From positions 1 through 36,309 of the forward strand of contig JAPUFX010000015.1 in NCBI GenBank assembly GCA_027293415.1: a stretch of 36,309 bases of DNA. Reading direction: 5' to 3'. This DNA is from Candidatus Methylomirabilota bacterium (GTDB lineage: Bacteria > Methylomirabilota > Methylomirabilia > Methylomirabilales > CSP1-5). The notes beneath the pieces were generated by a model. The model was not told the origin of the DNA. It saw only the letters and a list, made by a program, of their open reading frames with translations, and did not search any database. The translations under genes were made by a program, and so were the position numbers. This document shows, in pieces, positions 2,082 to 35,029 of the stretch; position 1 is the first letter of the stretch, and the number at the start of each line of letters is the position of its first letter.

Positions 2082-3854
2082 ATGACAGATGAGGTAAGGC
2101 TGGAGGAGCTCAAGGTCCTCATCGGCGTGGGCAAGAAAAAGGGATACCTGACCTACGAGGAGATCAATAATCATCTTCCGGAAGATGTTACCTCTGCTGA
2201 GCAGATCGATCGCATCTTAAGCCTCTTGAATGAGATGGACATCGAAGTCCTCGATGCCCCCCACCAGGCCGGGCGAGCGGGGACAAAGAAGGCAGCGGAG
2301 CGCCCGTCGGCTAGGGCAGAGGCGGAAGTGGAAGTGGATCTCAGCCCCTCGCCGGTCGGACGAACCGATGACCCGGTACGGATGTACCTCCGGGAGATGG
2401 GGAAAACCCCGCTTCTCACCCGGGAGGGGGAGATCGGAATTGCCAAGCGGATCGAGGAAGGACGCCGCGAGGCTACCGATTCAGTCTGCCGAGCTGAGAT
2501 CGCCGCTCGAGAGGTGATTTTCTGGGGGGAACGTCTGCTCCAGGGCCGAATTCGGGTGTCCGATCTGATCGCTCTCAACGAATTTGACGAAATTTCAGAA
2601 CAGAGGGAAAAGGAATTGGTGGCTGAGGTTGCGCCATCCCTGAAGAGCGTTCGGAAGGAACAGGAGAAAGTAGATGATTTAGCCAAGCGCTTCGAGCGGG
2701 CCGAGCGACGAGGGAACACAAAGCGGGCAGAGCGCCTGTACCACGAGATTCAAGAGAAAAGCGAACAGCAGGCCGCGCTCCTGCGGCAGCTGAATCTCAA
2801 CCAGCGGGTCATAGAACGGATCGTCGCCCGCATGCGAAGCATCCTTGAGCGGATTGAGAAGGCCGAGCAGGAGATGAAAGAGCTCAGGCGGTTCGCGCGG
2901 TTGAGCGCCGCCAACTTCAAGGTGCTTTACGATACCACCCTGGGCAATGGTGTCTCAATGCGGACACTGATCCGGCGTACTAAGTTTTCCCGCGAGAAGC
3001 TAGAAGAACTTCAGCGGCAGATCAAGGTCATCACCAAGAAGATCGACCGGGCCGAGCAAGAGGCCGACGCCAGCTCGAGCGAGCTGCGCGAGCTAATGCA
3101 GGCTATTAGTCGGGGTGAGCGGAAGGCGCTGGATGCGAAGCGGGAGATGGTGGAGGCTAACCTCCGTTTGGTCATCTCTATTGCGAAGAAGTACACGAAC
3201 CGGGGCCTCCAGTTTTTGGACCTCATTCAGGAGGGGAATATCGGTCTCATGCGGGCGGTGGAGAAGTTCGAGTACCAGCGGGGTTATAAATTCTCCACCT
3301 ATGCCACCTGGTGGATCCGGCAGGCAATTACCCGGGCCATCGCCGATCAGGCCCGAACCATCCGGATCCCGGTCCATATGATCGAGACCATCAATAAGTT
3401 GATCCGTGCCTCCCGCCAGTTGGTGCAGGAATATGGTCGGGAACCCAGCCCGGAGGAGATTGCCCAAAAAATCGACCTCCCCGTGGACAAGGTGCGGAAG
3501 GTCCTAAAGATCGCTCAAGAACCGATCTCCTTGGAGACCCCTATCGGAGAGGAAGAGGATTCGCACCTGGGGGACTTTATCGAGGATAAGGGGGCGGTCT
3601 CACCTCTCGATGCGTTCATTGGAATCAATCTGGGAGCGCAGACCGACGATGTTCTGCATACCTTGACCGAACGGGAGCGAAGGGTGCTGCGCCTTCGGTT
3701 CGGGATCGGGAGTGGTGTGGACCGCACCCTGGAAGAGGTAGGACAGGAGTTCGACGTCACCCGGGAGCGGATTCGGCAGATTGAAGCCAAGGCATTGCGC
3801 AAGTTGCGACATCCCACCCGAGGCCGGAAGCTCCGAAGCTTCGTCGAACCCTAG
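2082..3854 (+). CDS. rpoD: Primary RNA polymerase sigma factor RpoD (sigma-70)
   Basis: Housekeeping sigma factor that directs core RNA polymerase to -35/-10 promoters. The 590-residue protein shows region 1.1 (residues 1-60), region 1.2 starting at [11 protein letters not shown], and a long charged non-conserved insert of about 180 residues. Region 2 contains [12 protein letters not shown] and the -10 recognition/melting helix [14 protein letters not shown]. Region 3 follows, then region 4 with the -35 recognition helix near [19 protein letters not shown] strong AAGGAGG precedes the ATG at 2082. The 83-bp gap after dnaG contains a short direct repeat of GGTAAATAAA. The stop codon lies in a CTAG followed by a GC-rich hairpin. 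Confidence 0.98.
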
Positions 3855-3876
3855 GCCCCCAGGGGGGGCCATTTAT
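3854..3876 (+). terminator. Possible weak intrinsic terminator after rpoD
   Basis: A GGCCCC/GGGGCC inverted repeat with a very small loop starts in the rpoD stop codon and is followed by ATTTATT. The T tract is poor, so termination would be partial at best. Confidence 0.35.
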
Positions 3877-3879
3877 TGG

Positions 3880-4105
3880 TTCACAGTTCACAGTTCAGGG
3901 TTCGTGACAAATGAATGGCTGTCAGCAATCAGCTGTCAGCTGTCAGCCTGGCAAGAGCGGATGGCTGACTGCGGACTGCTGACAGCTGCTCTATGGGCCC
4001 ACCAACTCGTTCAGAGTTCAGGGTTCAGAGAGAAAAACGAAAAACGGATTTTTGTGGTCTTGCTTGCCACCACGAACCATGAACCCTGGACCATACGCCA
4101 TGAAC
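3880..4105 (+). repeat. Degenerate short-word intergenic repeats (GTTCAG / CTGTCAGC / ATGAACC words)
   Basis: The gap between rpoD and the zinc-ribbon gene is made of imperfect short words. AGTTCAGGGTTC occurs twice (about 3891 and 4015), with extra partial copies of GTTCACA. AGCTGTCAGC-like words and their complement GCTGACAGC occur several times between 3917 and 3995. ATGAACC and GAACC words fill 4075-4105. No open frame with coding character is present. The lon-rnj gap (23249-23285) carries a similar TCAGC-type stretch, so the words are dispersed in this genome. Confidence 0.6.
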
Positions 4106-5187: not shown

Positions 5188-8100
5188 ATGGCGATCTCAG
5201 CGGTCCGTGAAGCTTCACGACTCATCTTCGTCGATGAGCTGACGGGGCTCTACAACCGGCGGTTCATGCGACAGTATCTCCGGGACCGCCTGGACCACTT
5301 TGTTCAGAGCCGCACACCCCTGTGCGTCATCATGTTCGATCTCGACGGCTTCAAGCAGGTGAACGACACCTACGGGCATCTCGAGGGAGACCTCGTCCTC
5401 AAGCGCCTAGCCCAACTTATCCGTGAGACGGCCCCGTCGGGGAGCTACGCGATCCGTTTTGCCGGCGACGAGTTCTTTGTCTTTCTCGAGGGTGTTGACG
5501 GGGCCGGCGGGGTGAGCGTCGCCGAGGGGATTCGAGAACGAGTCGCCGCCCAGCCGTTCAGCAGCGACAAGGTTCCAGACGGTGTCCCGGTGCAGGTGAG
5601 CGTCGGCGTCGCCGCCTGTCCGGAGGACGCCACCAGCGCGACCGATCTCATAGATGCGGCCGACCAGGCGCTTTACCAGTCCAAGCGGATGGGAAAGAAC
5701 TGCGTGAGTCGGGCGAGCAGGTCAATGCTTCCGCCTGAGGAGGAGGTCCTCGAGCGGTTTCCTTGTCCGCGCGTCGTTGGTCGGTACGCCGAGCTTGAGA
5801 AGCTTGATCGAGCACTGGTGGACTCTGCCGACCGGAAGCACCGCTTCCTCCTCGTGGAGGGGCACCGAGGCCTCGGAAAGAGTCGTCTCCTGGCCGAAGT
5901 GATGCAGCGCGCCGGCACCCGTGGCCTTAGGTGTTTCTTTGGACGCTGCCTGGAATCACACCAGGCTATCCCATACAGCAGTCTTACCCCGGTGGTGACC
6001 GAGTGCTTGACCCGGGAGCACGGGCAACTGGAGTCTGTCATGAGGCGGCTGTCGGGCCCGACGCTGACGGAGCTTGGGACGATCATTCCCGGGCTCGCGA
6101 CCGCCGATGGGCCGCGGGAATCCCTCACCGCTGAGGAACGGCGAAGTCTGCTCTTTCACGGCATGGGAGATCTCCTCTGCCTGCTTTCAGAGCGGGCCCC
6201 GCTGGTGCTGTTCCTCGACGATATCCACTTCGTGGACGACGCAAGCTTGGAGGTCCTCTATCGCCTTCTGGACCGGGACGACGGCGGGGTGGTCGTCTAC
6301 GGTGCGGGCCGGTCGGAGGCCCTCACCCAGCAGGAGGCCCCACCCCCACTGCTGCGTCTCTTCGCCCTCCTGCGCCAATCACCGAATTTTTCGAATGTGA
6401 GCCTCGACACGCTTGCACCGCAGGACGTCAAGCAGATGCTCGCGGCAATCCTGGAGCGGCACACGCCCTCGCCTGCCTTCTTGCAGCATCTGTTCGAGGC
6501 GAGCGGGGGAATTCCGCTGTTCGTCGAGGAGACGCTCAAGGGGCTCATCGCTAAGGGGGTCCTGAAGGCGGCGGAGGGAAACTGGGACCTAGACGCGGTG
6601 AATCTCGCCGAGATTCCGGCGTCGCTGGAGGCCGCAGTCCTCGGGGGGTTGGAAGCCCTTGACCAGGAAACCCACGCCATGATCTGGAAGGCGGCGGTGG
6701 TCGGCCCTCACGTGGACCTCACGCTGCTGGCCGGGGTGCTGGGGAAGGACCCAGGGGAAACCCAGCAGCTCGTTGATCGCGGGAAGAAGCAGCGGGTGTT
6801 CGAGGAGCCGGGTCCGCTGTCGGACGAGGAAGAAGTGCGGTTTTTGAGCCAGTGCTTTCAGCAAATTGTCTACACCGGCCTCGGCCAGGATGATCGCCGA
6901 CGCACCCACCGGGTTGTCGGGGAGGTGGCGGAGCGGCTCGCGGGGTCGCAGGTTGAGGCGGTGTTGGGGCCGCTGGCATATCACTTCGAGCGCTCGGACG
7001 ATACGGCCAAGGCGGAGTTCTACAGCCGACGAGTGCAGGAAGTCTCGACACAGCTCTTTTCGGCGGACGAAGTGGAGCGAGAGCTGAGCCTGAAGGTCGG
7101 GGCGCAGGACTTCCAGTTCCAGCTGGACGAGCAGACCTTCCCTCTGGCCGAGAGATTTTTGAGAACCTTGACCGTCGCGGTGAAGAACATGCGGCTGTAC
7201 CCCGAGGGGAGTCAGCTCGTGACGGAGAGCGTGGCGGCGGCCACCACCACCCTACTGGACCTGCTAGGCCAGGTGGAGGCCGTGACTTTCGCCGAAGAGG
7301 GTCAGGCCCTTCTGGGCAACGGCCAGCCACTGGAGCGGAAAGGGCTACATCAGGTCGTCGAAGAAGTGTTGCAAGTCTACACCGACCATGGGATTCGCCG
7401 GTGCACCTTCGCGCGCGGGATCACCCAGACTGATGTGATGGGCCTGCTGAAGATCCTGAGCGGGCCGTCTCAGGGGATCCAGCACGACGTGGCATTCTGG
7501 GAGCAACGGCTCGAGTCGATGGGGATCGAGCACGTGGACATCTTTCCAGTCATCTATCTGGCGGCGGGGGAAGCGAAGACCGTTTGGAGGCGTGAACAGG
7601 CGGAGGCACGTCTGGACGATCCGACCCTGGTGTTGGTCCGTGACATGCTCCGCTCGCTCGCGGCGACGGTCGACAACATTCGTCTCTACCCGCCCGAGAG
7701 CGAGCTGATCACCCTCACCCTCGATCAGCTGGATCGCCATACCCAGGAGCTCTTTGAGCGCCTCCCGAGCCTGACCGTGGCAATGGCAGAGGGGACGATC
7801 GTCGTCAACGCGACCCGACCGAATCCCCGCCAGTTCGGCATCACGATTGAGATCCTCCAAAAGCTCATGGAGGAAAGTGGCCTCACGAGCCTGACCATCC
7901 GGCGCGGCGTGACCCGCGAGGAGTTTCGGGTATTTCTCAGTCACTTGGCCTTGCCCCTCGAGGACGCGCAGCGAGCACCCACCTTCTGGCGGAGCATGCT
8001 CGAAAGACGTGGGATCACCACTATCGAGGTGGGAACCCGCATGTACGCGGCTGCGGTGGAACTGGAGAGTCCCCTCGAAACTGTCGCCGGGGAGATCTCC

Positions 8101-9285
8101 GAGGCCGAGGAGATCCTCCAGCGCGTGGCCCAATGGCTCCAGGACCCCCTGGCGGCATTCCTCGAAGGGCAAGTTCAAGAAGAGATCGCGCCCGTTCTCG
8201 GGACGCTGCTCGGCGTCGAGCGCGAGGATCTGGCGCGGCAGCTCGTGGGACGGACCACGGGTGCATTAGCCGAAGCGGATGGGAGTCTCCGCCGGAAGGC
8301 CGCCGAAGGACTTCATGTCTCTTTGAGGGGCGTGGGGGAGGCATCCGTTGATTGGCTGCTCGACTTGATGCTTGAAACCGTCGCGGATGCCGTATCCAGA
8401 GAAACAGAACCCGAGGCGTTCCAGGGCGAGGTGGAACTTTCGGCAGAGATCCTCAAACGGCTCCTCCAACGTAGAGACCTCGTGCGAGGGGCGCCTCTAG
8501 CCGAGGCTCTAGGCAGACTGCCAACGAGAAAGCCCGAGATGGAGAACTTTGTCGAGCCGGTGAGGAGGTTCGTGGACTCGCTGGCGCCATACCTCATGAA
8601 GCTGATCCTGGAGGGTGAGGACCTAGAGACTTCCCGCGTCGCCGCGACACTTTTGCGTGCCCAGGGGAACGCAGCGTTTCGGCTCCTCAGCCAGGAGCTG
8701 GCGCGGGCCGCTTCGCTCGAAAAGACCTGCCGTATTGTGGCAGTACTCGACGTCGTCGCGCCGGCCCTGGGAAGCGATTTTTTCTTTCTCCTAGGTCATT
8801 CGGAGGTGCAGATCCGGGCCGAGATGGCCAAGGCGCTCACGCGGCTCTCGCGAGTCCAGGCGGTGCGGTTTCTCCGGCAGGCTATGAGCCAGCCCGAGCC
8901 CGAGGTGGTGCTCGGAGCCCTCGAGTGCGTACGTGGGCTTGGGGGAGTCGAGTTGATCGACTCCGTGATCGGCCTGCTCGACCATCCACCGAGTGAGCAT
9001 GTGCTGAGGGTCGCCTGCCTCCGCCTCGGTACGTTGCAGAACGCCCGTGCCGTCAGTCCGCTCCTTCGAATCCTCGGCCGCCGCCCGCGATTTTTCGGTC
9101 TGCGGAAGGGCCTTCCGGAAGAGATCCGAGCAACCGCTGCCCGCGCCCTCGGTGAGCTGGGCTTCCCAGAGGCGCGCGAGGGGCTGGAGGTAGCTGTCAA
9201 GGATCCGAGTAATTCGGTGCGCGCGGCGGTCCGCCTCGCACTTCACAAAATCCACCAGGAGCTCGAACCCGCGCCCGAGCGATGA
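5188..9285 (+). CDS. Giant GGDEF / STAND-ATPase / HEAT-repeat signalling protein
   Basis: A 1365-residue cytosolic-looking protein with no signal peptide or membrane segment. Residues 10-175 form a GGDEF domain with DELTGLYNRR (from D16) and the active-site variant AGDEF (92-96). The RxxD inhibitory site is absent (PSGS in its place). About 195-430 is an AAA_16/STAND-like ATPase: Walker A GHRGLGKS (K231), Walker B LVLFLDD (D344, D345). Helical segments to about 640 follow. Two copies of an unassigned domain come next (about 655-800 and 815-955), each opening with a helix ending in RLYP. The C-terminus (about 1150-1360) has HEAT-like repeats. Inference: an NTP-gated switch that makes or senses c-di-GMP, with the HEAT region as partner-binding platform. 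It sits alone behind a sigma-54-like promoter. Confidence 0.85.
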   Translation: MAISAVREASRLIFVDELTGLYNRRFMRQYLRDRLDHFVQSRTPLCVIMFDLDGFKQVNDTYGHLEGDLVLKRLAQLIRETAPSGSYAIRFAGDEFFVFLEGVDGAGGVSVAEGIRERVAAQPFSSDKVPDGVPVQVSVGVAACPEDATSATDLIDAADQALYQSKRMGKNCVSRASRSMLPPEEEVLERFPCPRVVGRYAELEKLDRALVDSADRKHRFLLVEGHRGLGKSRLLAEVMQRAGTRGLRCFFGRCLESHQAIPYSSLTPVVTECLTREHGQLESVMRRLSGPTLTELGTIIPGLATADGPRESLTAEERRSLLFHGMGDLLCLLSERAPLVLFLDDIHFVDDASLEVLYRLLDRDDGGVVVYGAGRSEALTQQEAPPPLLRLFALLRQSPNFSNVSLDTLAPQDVKQMLAAILERHTPSPAFLQHLFEASGGIPLFVEETLKGLIAKGVLKAAEGNWDLDAVNLAEIPASLEAAVLGGLEALDQETHAMIWKAAVVGPHVDLTLLAGVLGKDPGETQQLVDRGKKQRVFEEPGPLSDEEEVRFLSQCFQQIVYTGLGQDDRRRTHRVVGEVAERLAGSQVEAVLGPLAYHFERSDDTAKAEFYSRRVQEVSTQLFSADEVERELSLKVGAQDFQFQLDEQTFPLAERFLRTLTVAVKNMRLYPEGSQLVTESVAAATTTLLDLLGQVEAVTFAEEGQALLGNGQPLERKGLHQVVEEVLQVYTDHGIRRCTFARGITQTDVMGLLKILSGPSQGIQHDVAFWEQRLESMGIEHVDIFPVIYLAAGEAKTVWRREQAEARLDDPTLVLVRDMLRSLAATVDNIRLYPPESELITLTLDQLDRHTQELFERLPSLTVAMAEGTIVVNATRPNPRQFGITIEILQKLMEESGLTSLTIRRGVTREEFRVFLSHLALPLEDAQRAPTFWRSMLERRGITTIEVGTRMYAAAVELESPLETVAGEISEAEEILQRVAQWLQDPLAAFLEGQVQEEIAPVLGTLLGVEREDLARQLVGRTTGALAEADGSLRRKAAEGLHVSLRGVGEASVDWLLDLMLETVADAVSRETEPEAFQGEVELSAEILKRLLQRRDLVRGAPLAEALGRLPTRKPEMENFVEPVRRFVDSLAPYLMKLILEGEDLETSRVAATLLRAQGNAAFRLLSQELARAASLEKTCRIVAVLDVVAPALGSDFFFLLGHSEVQIRAEMAKALTRLSRVQAVRFLRQAMSQPEPEVVLGALECVRGLGGVELIDSVIGLLDHPPSEHVLRVACLRLGTLQNARAVSPLLRILGRRPRFFGLRKGLPEEIRATAARALGELGFPEAREGLEVAVKDPSNSVRAAVRLALHKIHQELEPAPER

Positions 9286-9345: not shown

Positions 9346-10053
9346 CTACTTCTTCTCAATGATCTTATGTGTTGTCTTGTGATGAATCTTCGCAACGATT
9401 CGCAATTCCTCTTCCCCCTTCTCCTTGACCACACGCCTTCCTGCTACGACCACGCTCTCGGACGCCCCCTTCGGCAGTTCAAACCCGTATTCGCGGCTGA
9501 ATTTCTCCATCCGGGAGATGAACCTGTCGCGGGCCAGAATGGATGCAGCGGCCACCGCGAGGTATCGTTCCCCTTTCGGTACCTGGATAAGCTGGAGATG
9601 TTTTCCTTTTTCCATGAGCCGGGAGCGGATATAACGCTCATCCCCGAATTGATCGGCGACCGCATGATTACAGGGAAACCGTTCGAGCAGGCTTTCGATT
9701 GCCCTTGCATGGCCCCAAGCCAGGAGGTGGTTGAGATTCTTGCGCTCCCTCCGAAAGCTCTCGTACAGCTCGTTGTAACGCTTTGGGGTGATTACGACCT
9801 CTTCATACTTCCCGCGACAAATTTCCCGGATTCGCGCAGCGAGCTCGCGGCATCGCCTGTCTGAGAGGAGCTTGGAATCCCTCACGTCGGCCGCTACGAG
9901 TTTTGGCCCGGTCACCGAGTCGAAGAACACCGCTGCCACTACCATCGGGCCAAAGTAGTCGCCCTTCCCGGATTCGTCGGTCCCGATATGCGGAAGGGGA
10001 ATCTCCTGGAGATCGGGATGGAGCCTGGCGGTTGCCTCAGCCGATTCGTTCAT
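9346..10053 (-). CDS. rnhC: Ribonuclease HIII-like (RNase H type 2), catalytic core only
   Basis: Cleaves the RNA strand of RNA-DNA hybrids. The 235-residue protein begins its core with GTDESGKGDYFGP (acidic pair D26, E27), the RNase HIII form of the motif; RNase HII usually has DEAGRG. Further conserved blocks are DSKLLSD, ADQFGD and AAASILARD. RNase HIII of Bacillus and Chlamydia is about 300 residues, with an N-terminal TBP-like substrate-binding domain. Here only about 23 residues precede the core. An in-frame TAG five codons upstream of the ATG excludes a longer product, so the N-terminal domain is truly missing. The gene is convergent with the GGDEF-ATPase gene. Confidence 0.85.
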   Translation of the reverse strand: MNESAEATARLHPDLQEIPLPHIGTDESGKGDYFGPMVVAAVFFDSVTGPKLVAADVRDSKLLSDRRCRELAARIREICRGKYEEVVITPKRYNELYESFRRERKNLNHLLAWGHARAIESLLERFPCNHAVADQFGDERYIRSRLMEKGKHLQLIQVPKGERYLAVAAASILARDRFISRMEKFSREYGFELPKGASESVVVAGRRVVKEKGEEELRIVAKIHHKTTHKIIEKK

Positions 10054-27797: not shown

Positions 27798-28343
27798 ATG
27801 ACAGAATCCCGTGAACACAAAATGAGAGCCTTTTTTAACTCGCGCTTCGTCAAAGGCGAGAAACGGAGAAGCTACCGCCTGGCGTTCATCCTGTTCTGGT
27901 CCATCCTCATGTATCTCTTTTTCAGTCATTTTGTCATAAGCGTCGGGATCATACGGGAGACGAGCATGGTTCCGACGGTGCCCGAGGATGGCTACTACTT
28001 GGTCAATAAGTATATCTACTACTTTACCCGCCCCAAGCGAGGAGATATCGTCGTCCTGCGACAAAATGCCTATACACCTGAGATCCTGAAGCGGGTGGTC
28101 GGGCTGGAGGGTGAGACGCTGCTGATCAAGGGAGGCCACGTGTACATCGACGGTCGTCGATTGGACGAACCCTACGCTTTGGGCGGTACGTATCCCGATT
28201 TCGGTCCACATGCGATTGAGAAAGATACCTATTTCATCCTCGGGGACAACCGAAAGGTGAGTAAAGATAGTCGCCATTTTGGTACCGTTCCGTTTCAGAA
28301 TATCGAGGGGAAAATCAAGCCAGGAGTATTCTTTCCGTTGTAG
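27798..28343 (+). CDS. lepB: Signal peptidase I (first of a tandem pair)
   Basis: Membrane serine protease that removes signal peptides from exported proteins. The 181-residue product has one N-terminal membrane helix (about 28-52). The catalytic dyad fits S56 (ETSMVPT) and K98 (ILKRVVGLEGE). The SPase boxes RGDIVVL and GDNRKVSKDSRHFG are complete. The ATG at 27798 has only a weak GAGGTC upstream; ATG at 27822 is an alternative. The next gene in the same direction is a diverged copy, and the two share FILFWSILMY in the membrane helix. Confidence 0.92.
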   Translation: MTESREHKMRAFFNSRFVKGEKRRSYRLAFILFWSILMYLFFSHFVISVGIIRETSMVPTVPEDGYYLVNKYIYYFTRPKRGDIVVLRQNAYTPEILKRVVGLEGETLLIKGGHVYIDGRRLDEPYALGGTYPDFGPHAIEKDTYFILGDNRKVSKDSRHFGTVPFQNIEGKIKPGVFFPL

Positions 28344-28606: not shown

Positions 28607-29188
28607 ATGATGGCGGAAATCACTTCGGAGATGGGCCGTACAAGAACAGAGGACGAAAAAGTTTTTTTTGACTGGCGTTATGTCAGGGGCCTGAAAGAGC
28701 ACCGAAGACATTACAGAATGGCCTTCATCCTGTTCTGGTCCATCTTGATGTATTACTTCGTTCAGGGATATGTCGTGGCCCTCGGGCTTGTGATAGACAG
28801 GAGCATGCAACCGTCGTTGCACAAGGAAGGGTATTATTTGGTCAACAAGTACATCTACCAGTTTACGAGTCCCGAGCGAGGGGACATTGTGGTGTTTAAG
28901 AGAACTCCAGATGCCGCTATGTTAGACGCCAAGCGCATTATCGGACTCCCCGGGGAAACCGTGCTGATTAGATCGGGAGATGTCTATATAGATGGCCACC
29001 GGTTGGAGGAGGCGTACGCCGTTGGCAAAACACACCCGGATCTCGGTCCCTATTCCGTCGCCGAGGGCACCTACTATGTCCTCGGGGATAGCCGATGGGT
29101 GAGGGAGGACAGCCGGGAGTTCGGGTCCCTTTCATTGAAGAAAATAGACGGGAAGATCGCACCGGACAAGCTATTCCCATTCCGCTAA
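28607..29188 (+). CDS. lepB: Signal peptidase I paralogue with GDSR box
   Basis: A 193-residue relative of the gene just upstream, sharing the membrane helix (AFILFWSILMYY, about 39-62) and the NKYIYxF block. The dyad fits S66 (DRSMQPS) and K109 (DAKRIIGLPGE). The usual GDNR motif reads GDSRWVREDSREFG, a variant seen in some active family members. The start is one of two adjacent ATGs (28607/28610), with a poor ribosome-binding site. The 263-bp gap before it (28344-28606) shows no gene. The stop is followed after 11 bases by an unknown 353-residue gene. Tandem duplication followed by divergence is the simplest origin; separate substrates are a guess. Confidence 0.9.
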   Translation: MMAEITSEMGRTRTEDEKVFFDWRYVRGLKEHRRHYRMAFILFWSILMYYFVQGYVVALGLVIDRSMQPSLHKEGYYLVNKYIYQFTSPERGDIVVFKRTPDAAMLDAKRIIGLPGETVLIRSGDVYIDGHRLEEAYAVGKTHPDLGPYSVAEGTYYVLGDSRWVREDSREFGSLSLKKIDGKIAPDKLFPFR

Positions 29189-33195: not shown

Positions 33196-34923
33196 TTAAC
33201 GGACGGATTTCGCCCGCTGCTTCGTTTTCTCTTCTCGTCTGGTGCTCGCACGAACCACCCGGTTGCGCCCGCGGCGCTTCGCCTGGTAAAGGGCGGCATC
33301 GGCGCTGGCGATAATGGATTCGGGGGCATCGCCGTGCTCTCGAAATCCGGCGACGCCGATGCTGACGGTGATCTGTTTGCTCCCGTTGCCAAATGTCTCC
33401 ATGGCCACGCGAGTGCGAATACGTTCAGCAGACTCCAAGCCTCCAGTTAATGCGGTTTCTGGAAGCATGACCAGGAACTCCTCGCCCCCATAGCGCGCCA
33501 CATAATCAACGCTGCGGATCGATTCCCTGAAGATGGACGCGATCTTGGAAAGCAGCTCGTCTCCGGCGAGGTGGCCGAAGCTGTCGTTATACTTCTTGAA
33601 GTGATCAATATCGATCATGAGTACCGAAAAGGGACGTTCGTGCCGGCGGGCTCGGGCCACCTCATTGGCGAGGGTTTCCATTAAATGTTTTCGGTTATAG
33701 AGCCCGGTCAGGCTGTCGGTGACGGAGAGCTGTGCCAGCTCCCTGTTTCTCTCGCTCAGCGTGTTGTTGATGGCGGCCAAATCGTCCCGCCCTTGGTGCA
33801 GGCGGGCCACCATATCGTTGAAGACCTCGGTCATGTAACCCACCTCGCCGCCGCTCAAGACGGGAAGATCCACTTGCAGGTCACCGGCAGCCACCTTGGC
33901 CGCGCCTTTGGTCAGGCGATCCAGGGGACGAACGATGGTGAGGCCGAGGATATAGGCGGTCAGGCCGATGCCCAGCAGTAGCCCTGACACCATCAGCAGG
34001 GTCAGATTCCGAAGCCGGACAACCTGAGCGTATGCTTCCTCCCCTCGTATCTCTGCTACAACCGCCCATTCCAATTGGGGCACACGCTTGAGGGTTCCCA
34101 CGACCTCTTTCCCCTGGTGGTCCGTGTATTCGAGTGAGGCCGCCTCTTTTTTAAACAGCGCCTGGGTGGTCCGAGGCGCCAGTTTTGATTTCATGAATGG
34201 CGAGGGGATCAGCCGAGAACTGATGACCAGGGTCCCATCCTGGGCGATCACATACACGTGTCCTGATCTTCCAAGAGAGAAGCTTTTCAGGAACTTATGA
34301 ATTGTTTGAAAATTTAGTCTTGCCGTCAGTACCCCCAAGAAGCGACCGTTTGCGGCCTTGATAGGTACGGCGATCATCATTCCCACTTTTTTCAAGGCCT
34401 CGTCCCAATGCGCCTCACCCAGGATGATATCATCTTTTCTTGCGAGGTTCAGCCAGCCGGGTGGGAGGGTTACAGGGCCAGGCCGGCGAGCGGTGGTGGC
34501 CACGACTTGGGCCTTCTGGTTGATAACCAGGAGTTCTTCGTAGTCGACAAATTTCGCCCGGACCGATTTGAGGTAGTCCTTTAGGCGTCGGAGTGCCTTG
34601 CCTTCCTTACCTGTGGCACCGTGGTCCCGAAGGATTTTCTCCAGGTTCTCTGAAACCTCGTAGGAGCTCGAGAAGACGCGCACGTCGTAGAAACGCTCCT
34701 TGAGCCATAAGTCAATCTCCCGTGCAGTATGGGAGGTAACATTTCGCAGTTCCTCCGTGATCTTTTCCGTCAGGGACCGCTTGTTCTGCACGTACGATAG
34801 CCAGCCCATGGTCAGGGATGGGATGAGGGTGGCCAGCAGAGCGAAGACCAAGATCTTGCTCTTGATGCTGTGCAAGCGGAAGGTATCGAGGAAGGTCGAA
34901 ATGGTTTCTTCCCAGGAACCCAA
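33196..34923 (-). CDS. Membrane diguanylate cyclase (Cache-HAMP-GGDEF)
   Basis: Makes c-di-GMP in response to an extracytoplasmic signal. A first membrane helix (about 21-42) precedes a large periplasmic region of about 250 residues with Cache/PAS-like features (LLVINQKAQVVATT, VYVIAQDGTLVISS). A second helix (about 305-330), a HAMP domain (TIVRPLDRLTKGAAKVAAGDL) and the GGDEF domain follow. The active site is intact GGEEF (479-483), with the RSVD inhibitory site five residues before it, so product inhibition is expected. I chose TTG at 34923 behind AGGAGGGG (575 residues); GTG at 35004 would add 27 residues without a clear ribosome-binding site. Confidence 0.93.
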   Translation of the reverse strand: MGSWEETISTFLDTFRLHSIKSKILVFALLATLIPSLTMGWLSYVQNKRSLTEKITEELRNVTSHTAREIDLWLKERFYDVRVFSSSYEVSENLEKILRDHGATGKEGKALRRLKDYLKSVRAKFVDYEELLVINQKAQVVATTARRPGPVTLPPGWLNLARKDDIILGEAHWDEALKKVGMMIAVPIKAANGRFLGVLTARLNFQTIHKFLKSFSLGRSGHVYVIAQDGTLVISSRLIPSPFMKSKLAPRTTQALFKKEAASLEYTDHQGKEVVGTLKRVPQLEWAVVAEIRGEEAYAQVVRLRNLTLLMVSGLLLGIGLTAYILGLTIVRPLDRLTKGAAKVAAGDLQVDLPVLSGGEVGYMTEVFNDMVARLHQGRDDLAAINNTLSERNRELAQLSVTDSLTGLYNRKHLMETLANEVARARRHERPFSVLMIDIDHFKKYNDSFGHLAGDELLSKIASIFRESIRSVDYVARYGGEEFLVMLPETALTGGLESAERIRTRVAMETFGNGSKQITVSIGVAGFREHGDAPESIIASADAALYQAKRRGRNRVVRASTRREEKTKQRAKSVR

Positions 34924-35029
34924 AAGGCCCCTCCTTTTCGAAGGGTGCACCTTGCAAAAACTGAACCAGATTAGAGGCCTTTCAGAATTCCTCCTGCCTG
35001 GCACATGGACCGGCCACGGTCATACCTAG

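Follow-up and report, generated by a model that had tools for sequence, protein, structure and literature searches.

Nucleotide cyclases joined to a STAND ATPase are known from bacteria and from humans. The bacterial class III cyclase-AAA_16-TPR proteins and human soluble adenylyl cyclase (sAC, ADCY10) each place an N-terminal nucleotide cyclase in front of a P-loop STAND ATPase in one soluble chain (PMC12802110 for sAC), and the bacterial examples (L216, L218 and L220) also carry helical repeats. In a contig of 36,309 nucleotides from a Candidatus Methylomirabilota bacterium, the whole of which we refer to as the window, the forward-strand gene at positions 5188..9285 encodes a protein of 1365 residues that has helical repeats and the same general plan. 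It differs in carrying a GGDEF domain and no class III cyclase domain, and in having HEAT repeats and a pair of domains that we term MID, with neither TPR nor zinc ribbon. MID is simply our working name for a duplicated domain of approximately 155 amino acids. The initial annotation proposed a possible new class of cyclic di-GMP (c-di-GMP) signalling protein, and this is only partly upheld. Judged from sequence, the kind is already known, namely a nucleotide cyclase on a STAND switch, with class III examples followed by repeats in the same phylum and in human sAC; what is new is GGDEF in the cyclase slot, the pair of MID domains and the use of HEAT where the known proteins have TPR.

Other systems resemble parts of the protein. 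It shares with MalT-type STAND regulators and with the NLR and Apaf-1 ATPases a STAND ATPase followed by a C-terminal repeat region, a likeness seen also in fold matches to 6mfv, Apaf-1 and NRC2, but their outputs are DNA binding or a death or immune domain whereas here the predicted output is a cyclase. The GGDEF fold and catalytic residues are those of PleD and WspR; unlike these, the window protein would receive its input C-terminal to GGDEF, has an AGDEF signature and lacks both the inhibitory site (I-site) and a receiver domain. In NTPase-linked conflict systems of the VMAP/MoxR type, GGDEF occasionally replaces a cyclic nucleotide monophosphate (cNMP) cyclase (PMC7159879), but the window holds no VMAP, MoxR or vWA partners. 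Searches of the open-licence literature for GGDEF together with STAND, AAA_16, NACHT or Rokubacteria gave no description of this architecture.

The gene is an open reading frame with no internal stop, and its coordinates and length are exactly those of the initial annotation. The order given there, GGDEF, ATPase, two copies of one domain and then HEAT, is borne out by Pfam, internal alignment and homologues. The GGDEF domain occupies residues 14-171 (5227..5700) and is followed by a STAND/AAA_16 ATPase with a helical arm, at about residues 195-631 (5770..7080), assigned from Pfam, NCBIfam and fold matches. The two MID copies, delimited by internal alignment and an AlphaFold 2 (AF2) model, span residues 640-802 (7105..7593) and 803-962 (7594..8073), and an all-helical solenoid extends over residues 972-1360 or thereabouts (8101..9267), as indicated by HEAT_2, AF2 and matches to alphaRep and PP2A-A. 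A segment from residues 640 to 1150 had previously been left unassigned. Its first part (640-962) proves to be the MID pair, the remainder a helical segment running into the HEAT solenoid.

The GGDEF assignment is secure, with a Pfam score of 141.5 bits against a curated cut-off of 23.8 (E 2.7e-41) and relatives in the PDB that include WspR and PleD. Residues for metal binding, guanine recognition and catalysis are all present. Nineteen members of the family, those of groups 'a', 'c' and 'd' that cover the GGDEF sites, could be compared, and in all 19 Asp51, Lys56, Asn59, Asp68, Gly93, Asp94, Glu95, Phe96 and Lys166 (numbering of the window protein) are invariant. The signature motif itself is AGDEF, lacking the canonical first glycine of GG(D/E)EF, and this position is Ala, Gly or Asp across the family. 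No RxxD I-site occurs at the usual place upstream of AGDEF, as the initial annotation had recognized. Does the alanine disqualify the enzyme? It does not, since the Vibrio enzyme VCA0965, with the same motif, makes c-di-GMP in vitro (PMC3974145); taken with the invariant catalytic residues, this leaves the idea of a cyclase killed by AGDEF unsupported. The domain is thus apparently a working c-di-GMP-making enzyme.

As a rule, diguanylate cyclases have their input domain ahead of GGDEF. In every family member the first conserved aspartate of GGDEF lies only 14-29 residues past the putative start, and in none is there a sensor, a dimerization domain or a coiled coil N-terminal to it. Control would therefore have to be exerted by the STAND part, C-terminal to GGDEF.

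STAND switches are ATP-driven and are used by the immune receptors of plants and animals. The window protein displays the features of such a switch: Walker A, Walker B with paired acidic residues, a G-x-P motif, a helical arm and C-terminal repeats. Pfam places AAA_16 at residues 195-365 (E 3.7e-21), and the NCBIfam model TOMM_kin_cyc (TOMM kinase/cyclase) matches residues 196-609, though under its own cut-off. Walker A is GHRGLGKS (residues 225-232, 5860..5883); the Walker B region is LVLFLDDIHFVDD (residues 339-351, 6202..6240), with LVLFLDDIH as Walker B proper. Both motifs, described as intact at the outset, are so, and no 'a', 'c' or 'd' member has lost either of them; the Walker B acids there are DD with the sole exception of DE in one Acidobacteriota genome (G128). 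The AF2 model of residues 176-1365, with a mean predicted local distance difference test (pLDDT) score of 81.5, matches 6mfv (E 4.3e-7), Apaf-1 (1.9e-6) and NRC2 (1.2e-5) in a Foldseek search of the PDB. The same model gives many HEAT-type matches, for example alphaRep and PP2A-A. By sequence, HEAT repeats are recognized at residues 1140-1358 approximately (HEAT_2, E 4.7e-14). A stretch of about 31 residues that Rokubacteriales orthologues possess, nearly the length of one HEAT repeat, is missing at about 1128-1130, and the sister genome shows the same.

We lean, by a little better than an even chance, towards the reading that the protein is a cytosolic, STAND-controlled diguanylate cyclase in which a C-terminal trigger and ATP drive assembly, pairing the GGDEF domains and starting c-di-GMP synthesis. 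For the window protein we infer the activity, product, ligand sensing, assembly and direction of control from its sequence and predicted structure. The N-terminal GGDEF domain would be the output, and the MID pair with the HEAT solenoid the part that senses a ligand or partner. At rest the STAND ATPase would keep the protein monomeric or closed. Binding of a protein or small ligand, with nucleotide exchange to ATP, would lead to self-assembly and so bring the GGDEF domains of two or more chains into contact. Since such domains work only as pairs, as established for PleD and WspR, assembly would start c-di-GMP synthesis. With no I-site the response would be burst-like. Related AAA_16 proteins of the same phylum carry other N-terminal outputs, a class III cyclase in the three proteins named above, a BTAD transcription activator (L217) and a sigma-54 activator (L219), and this variety fits a switch module with an exchangeable output.

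Three observations weigh against this reading. In human sAC the nucleotides tested failed to stimulate the full-length protein (PMC12802110), so a STAND part joined to a cyclase is not necessarily an ATP-triggered activator. The predicted template modelling score of the AF2 model is 0.44, such that individual domains are reliable and their mutual arrangement is not. Finally, neither a ligand nor a conserved partner gene came to light. A different role for the C-terminal parts might also be considered, in which the cyclase is constitutive and STAND-MID-HEAT only localizes or scaffolds it, for example at a membrane or polar complex, to give a local pool of c-di-GMP. In its favour, scaffolding is a classic role of HEAT solenoids, the enzyme lacks the brake of an I-site, and MID is found with HD-GYP and HEAT as well. 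The conserved Walker A and B motifs, under purifying selection, are a better fit to a working nucleotide switch, and we regard a permanently active, scaffolded enzyme as quite unlikely.

The protein is no isolated oddity: its phylogenetic spread shows a family conserved in no fewer than two phyla. Of 95 Methylomirabilota genomes searched with a MID profile, 13 encode the full protein, its layout verified, although some members are shortened by contig ends and the copy in the sister genome (G004) is split over two contigs. Among sampled Acidobacteriota, four genomes of 247 carry the full layout: G128, G224 (truncated), G352 (three genes) and G368 (two genes). In the STAND part the Acidobacteriota members are as little as 24-28% identical to the window protein, with the domain order unchanged. 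Ratios of non-synonymous to synonymous substitution (dN/dS) against Rokubacteriales orthologues are 0.20-0.30 for GGDEF, STAND and MID, and 0.22-0.44 for the C-terminus; few changes underlie the values against the sister genome, which are less secure. Every domain is under purifying selection. A chance fusion, or an artefact of annotation or assembly, is ruled out by the approximately 20 homologues with the same domain order in two phyla, and purifying selection on every domain together with the STAND and HEAT fold matches further counters a fusion artefact. Adjoining one Acidobacteriota member is a gene for a cNMP-binding-GGDEF protein (L195:5616-6587, forward strand), and a similar gene lies near the copy in L197.

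Six Rokubacteriales genomes (G051, G078, G079, G084, G085 and G088) possess a second copy, 'b', which adjoins the first wherever the contigs allow a view and is absent from Methylomirabilis. In the tree the 'b' copies form a separate clade with full support. All six have EN in Walker B where the 'a' copies have DD, and the Tyr of an ALY motif is lost. In one (G088) the cyclase motif has become AGDQY. The altered Walker B suggests a partner that would bind ATP but hydrolyse it poorly. The weakened cyclase motifs of these tandem paralogues also speak for a reading in which GGDEF is a sensor that binds GTP or c-di-GMP, with STAND and HEAT as the effector, for instance as a scaffold that binds another protein; many GGDEF domains do act as receptors. 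Pure binding, however, would not need the catalytic residues, all of which persist in 19 of 19 non-'b' members even where identity in the STAND part is only 24-28%. There is no I-site to bind product, and related AAA_16 proteins have their output at the N-terminus. We consider a receptor role unlikely and favour a cyclase under STAND control.

The MID domain deserves separate consideration. The two copies in the window protein are 27% identical over the domain and have motifs such as N.RLYP in common, and orthologues display the same duplication. The AF2 model of the tandem, with a mean pLDDT of 84.4, predicts for each copy two helices, a beta pair, a helix, a strand, two helices and a second beta pair. 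Is this a known family? Against Pfam the first window copy has no match and the other 11 rows yield only scattered hits, each in a single member, a search of PDB sequences returned nothing meaningful, and with Foldseek the best PDB match to the model has E 0.27 and the viral library provides none at E<=0.001. Identity with a known family, by Pfam, PDB sequence or PDB fold, is accordingly rejected.

MID also occurs in simpler proteins. On another contig of the same genome (C140 of G000; L120:2018-5073) a gene for a priA-like helicase is followed by one for MID-HEAT and one for MID-HD-GYP, a small c-di-GMP-related operon that uses MID. The HD-GYP protein keeps HD and HHxxxDxTGYP, and thus shares with the window protein both MID and the same c-di-GMP chemistry, but these proteins have a single MID and neither STAND nor GGDEF. 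MID-HD-GYP and MID-HEAT genes, often adjoining, recur in Methylomirabilota and Acidobacteriota, and MID-HEAT is also present in a genome titled Thermodesulfovibrio; a third group (189 genomes), the phylum to which a 'Deltaproteobacteria' metagenome-assembled genome belongs, gave only single MID matches. Since MID occurs in both GGDEF and HD-GYP proteins, it is present on both the synthetic and the degradative side of c-di-GMP turnover. An obligatory partnership that couples the two is unlikely, and we mostly reject it, because the full protein and the MID-HD-GYP type mostly occur in different genomes. Among Methylomirabilota the two occur together only in the window genome and its sister, and in one further genome (G094) the full protein is accompanied by a different MID protein.

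The genomic setting suggests how the gene arrived. In five further representatives of the genus dciA lies directly beside the zinc-ribbon gene, with no such signalling gene between them. Downstream of the signalling gene, and no part of it, is rnhB, encoding RNase HII (9346..10053, reverse strand; Pfam RNase_HII, 2.7e-28). In 11 genomes searched, the window's RNase HII gene is found elsewhere only in the sister genome, and it is missing from those same five genus members. The signalling gene and rnhB are one common insertion. The RNase J of the window genome is 53-55% identical to that of Rokubacteriales; the signalling protein is 62-71% identical to Rokubacteriales members in the STAND part. 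In the tree it lies inside the 'a' clade, with no finer placement, after the a/b duplication. The simplest reading of these comparisons is that the window copy was probably gained horizontally from a Rokubacteriales-type donor. No terminal direct repeats of a mobile element are of note around the insertion.

The window genome, of 2.75 Mb, has about 70 PilZ matches (69 above cut-off), many in tandem, so receptors for c-di-GMP are plentiful. The sister genome has 59 and other genus members 11-30, and such receptors have apparently undergone a strong expansion in the lineage with the signalling gene. This abundance is as expected in ordinary regulation and counts against an anti-phage, NLR-like STAND protein that employs a cyclic dinucleotide as alarm signal. 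The precedent for such a role is that conflict systems do combine STAND with nucleotide-signal enzymes, GGDEF being a rare substitute for cNMP cyclases there (PMC7159879). Yet the window neighbours are housekeeping genes, and the Rokubacteriales copy lies beside genes for methionine synthase and a thioredoxin-reductase-like protein. PADLOC, moreover, yields only weak partial hits (HEAT-ARM_XIII, 5e-5; mad8, 0.009) with no defence model that covers the protein. The lack of phage-defence neighbours noted in the initial annotation is therefore confirmed and its preference for regulation supported; we judge a defence function very improbable.

Other features of the window can be noted briefly. A further diguanylate cyclase, of the membrane type with the layout dCache-HAMP-GGDEF, is encoded at 33196-35004 (reverse strand). 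Two adjoining forward-strand genes at 27798-28343 and 28607-29188 resemble a duplicated signal peptidase I, the first by a match to TIGR02227 and the second by sequence similarity only. Low-complexity repeats (GTTCACAGTTCAG, CAGCTGTCAGC) occur at 3850-4060, between rpoD and the zinc-ribbon gene.

Taken together, the parts allow a broader proposal, which we offer tentatively and think unlikely to hold in full. A STAND machine would assemble on an intracellular trigger and release a burst of c-di-GMP, the first GGDEF counterpart of NLR-like assembly; in Rokubacteriales an active 'a' would work with a tandem 'b' of altered Walker B; and MID, as a new domain for sensing or docking, would serve c-di-GMP signalling on the side of synthesis (GGDEF) as well as that of breakdown (HD-GYP). 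If STAND control of the cyclase is correct, then input would act from behind GGDEF, through an ATP-dependent STAND switch, and c-di-GMP signalling would thereby connect with the mechanism by which NLR and Apaf-1 proteins work. MID would represent an undescribed domain common to the proteins that make c-di-GMP and those that degrade it.

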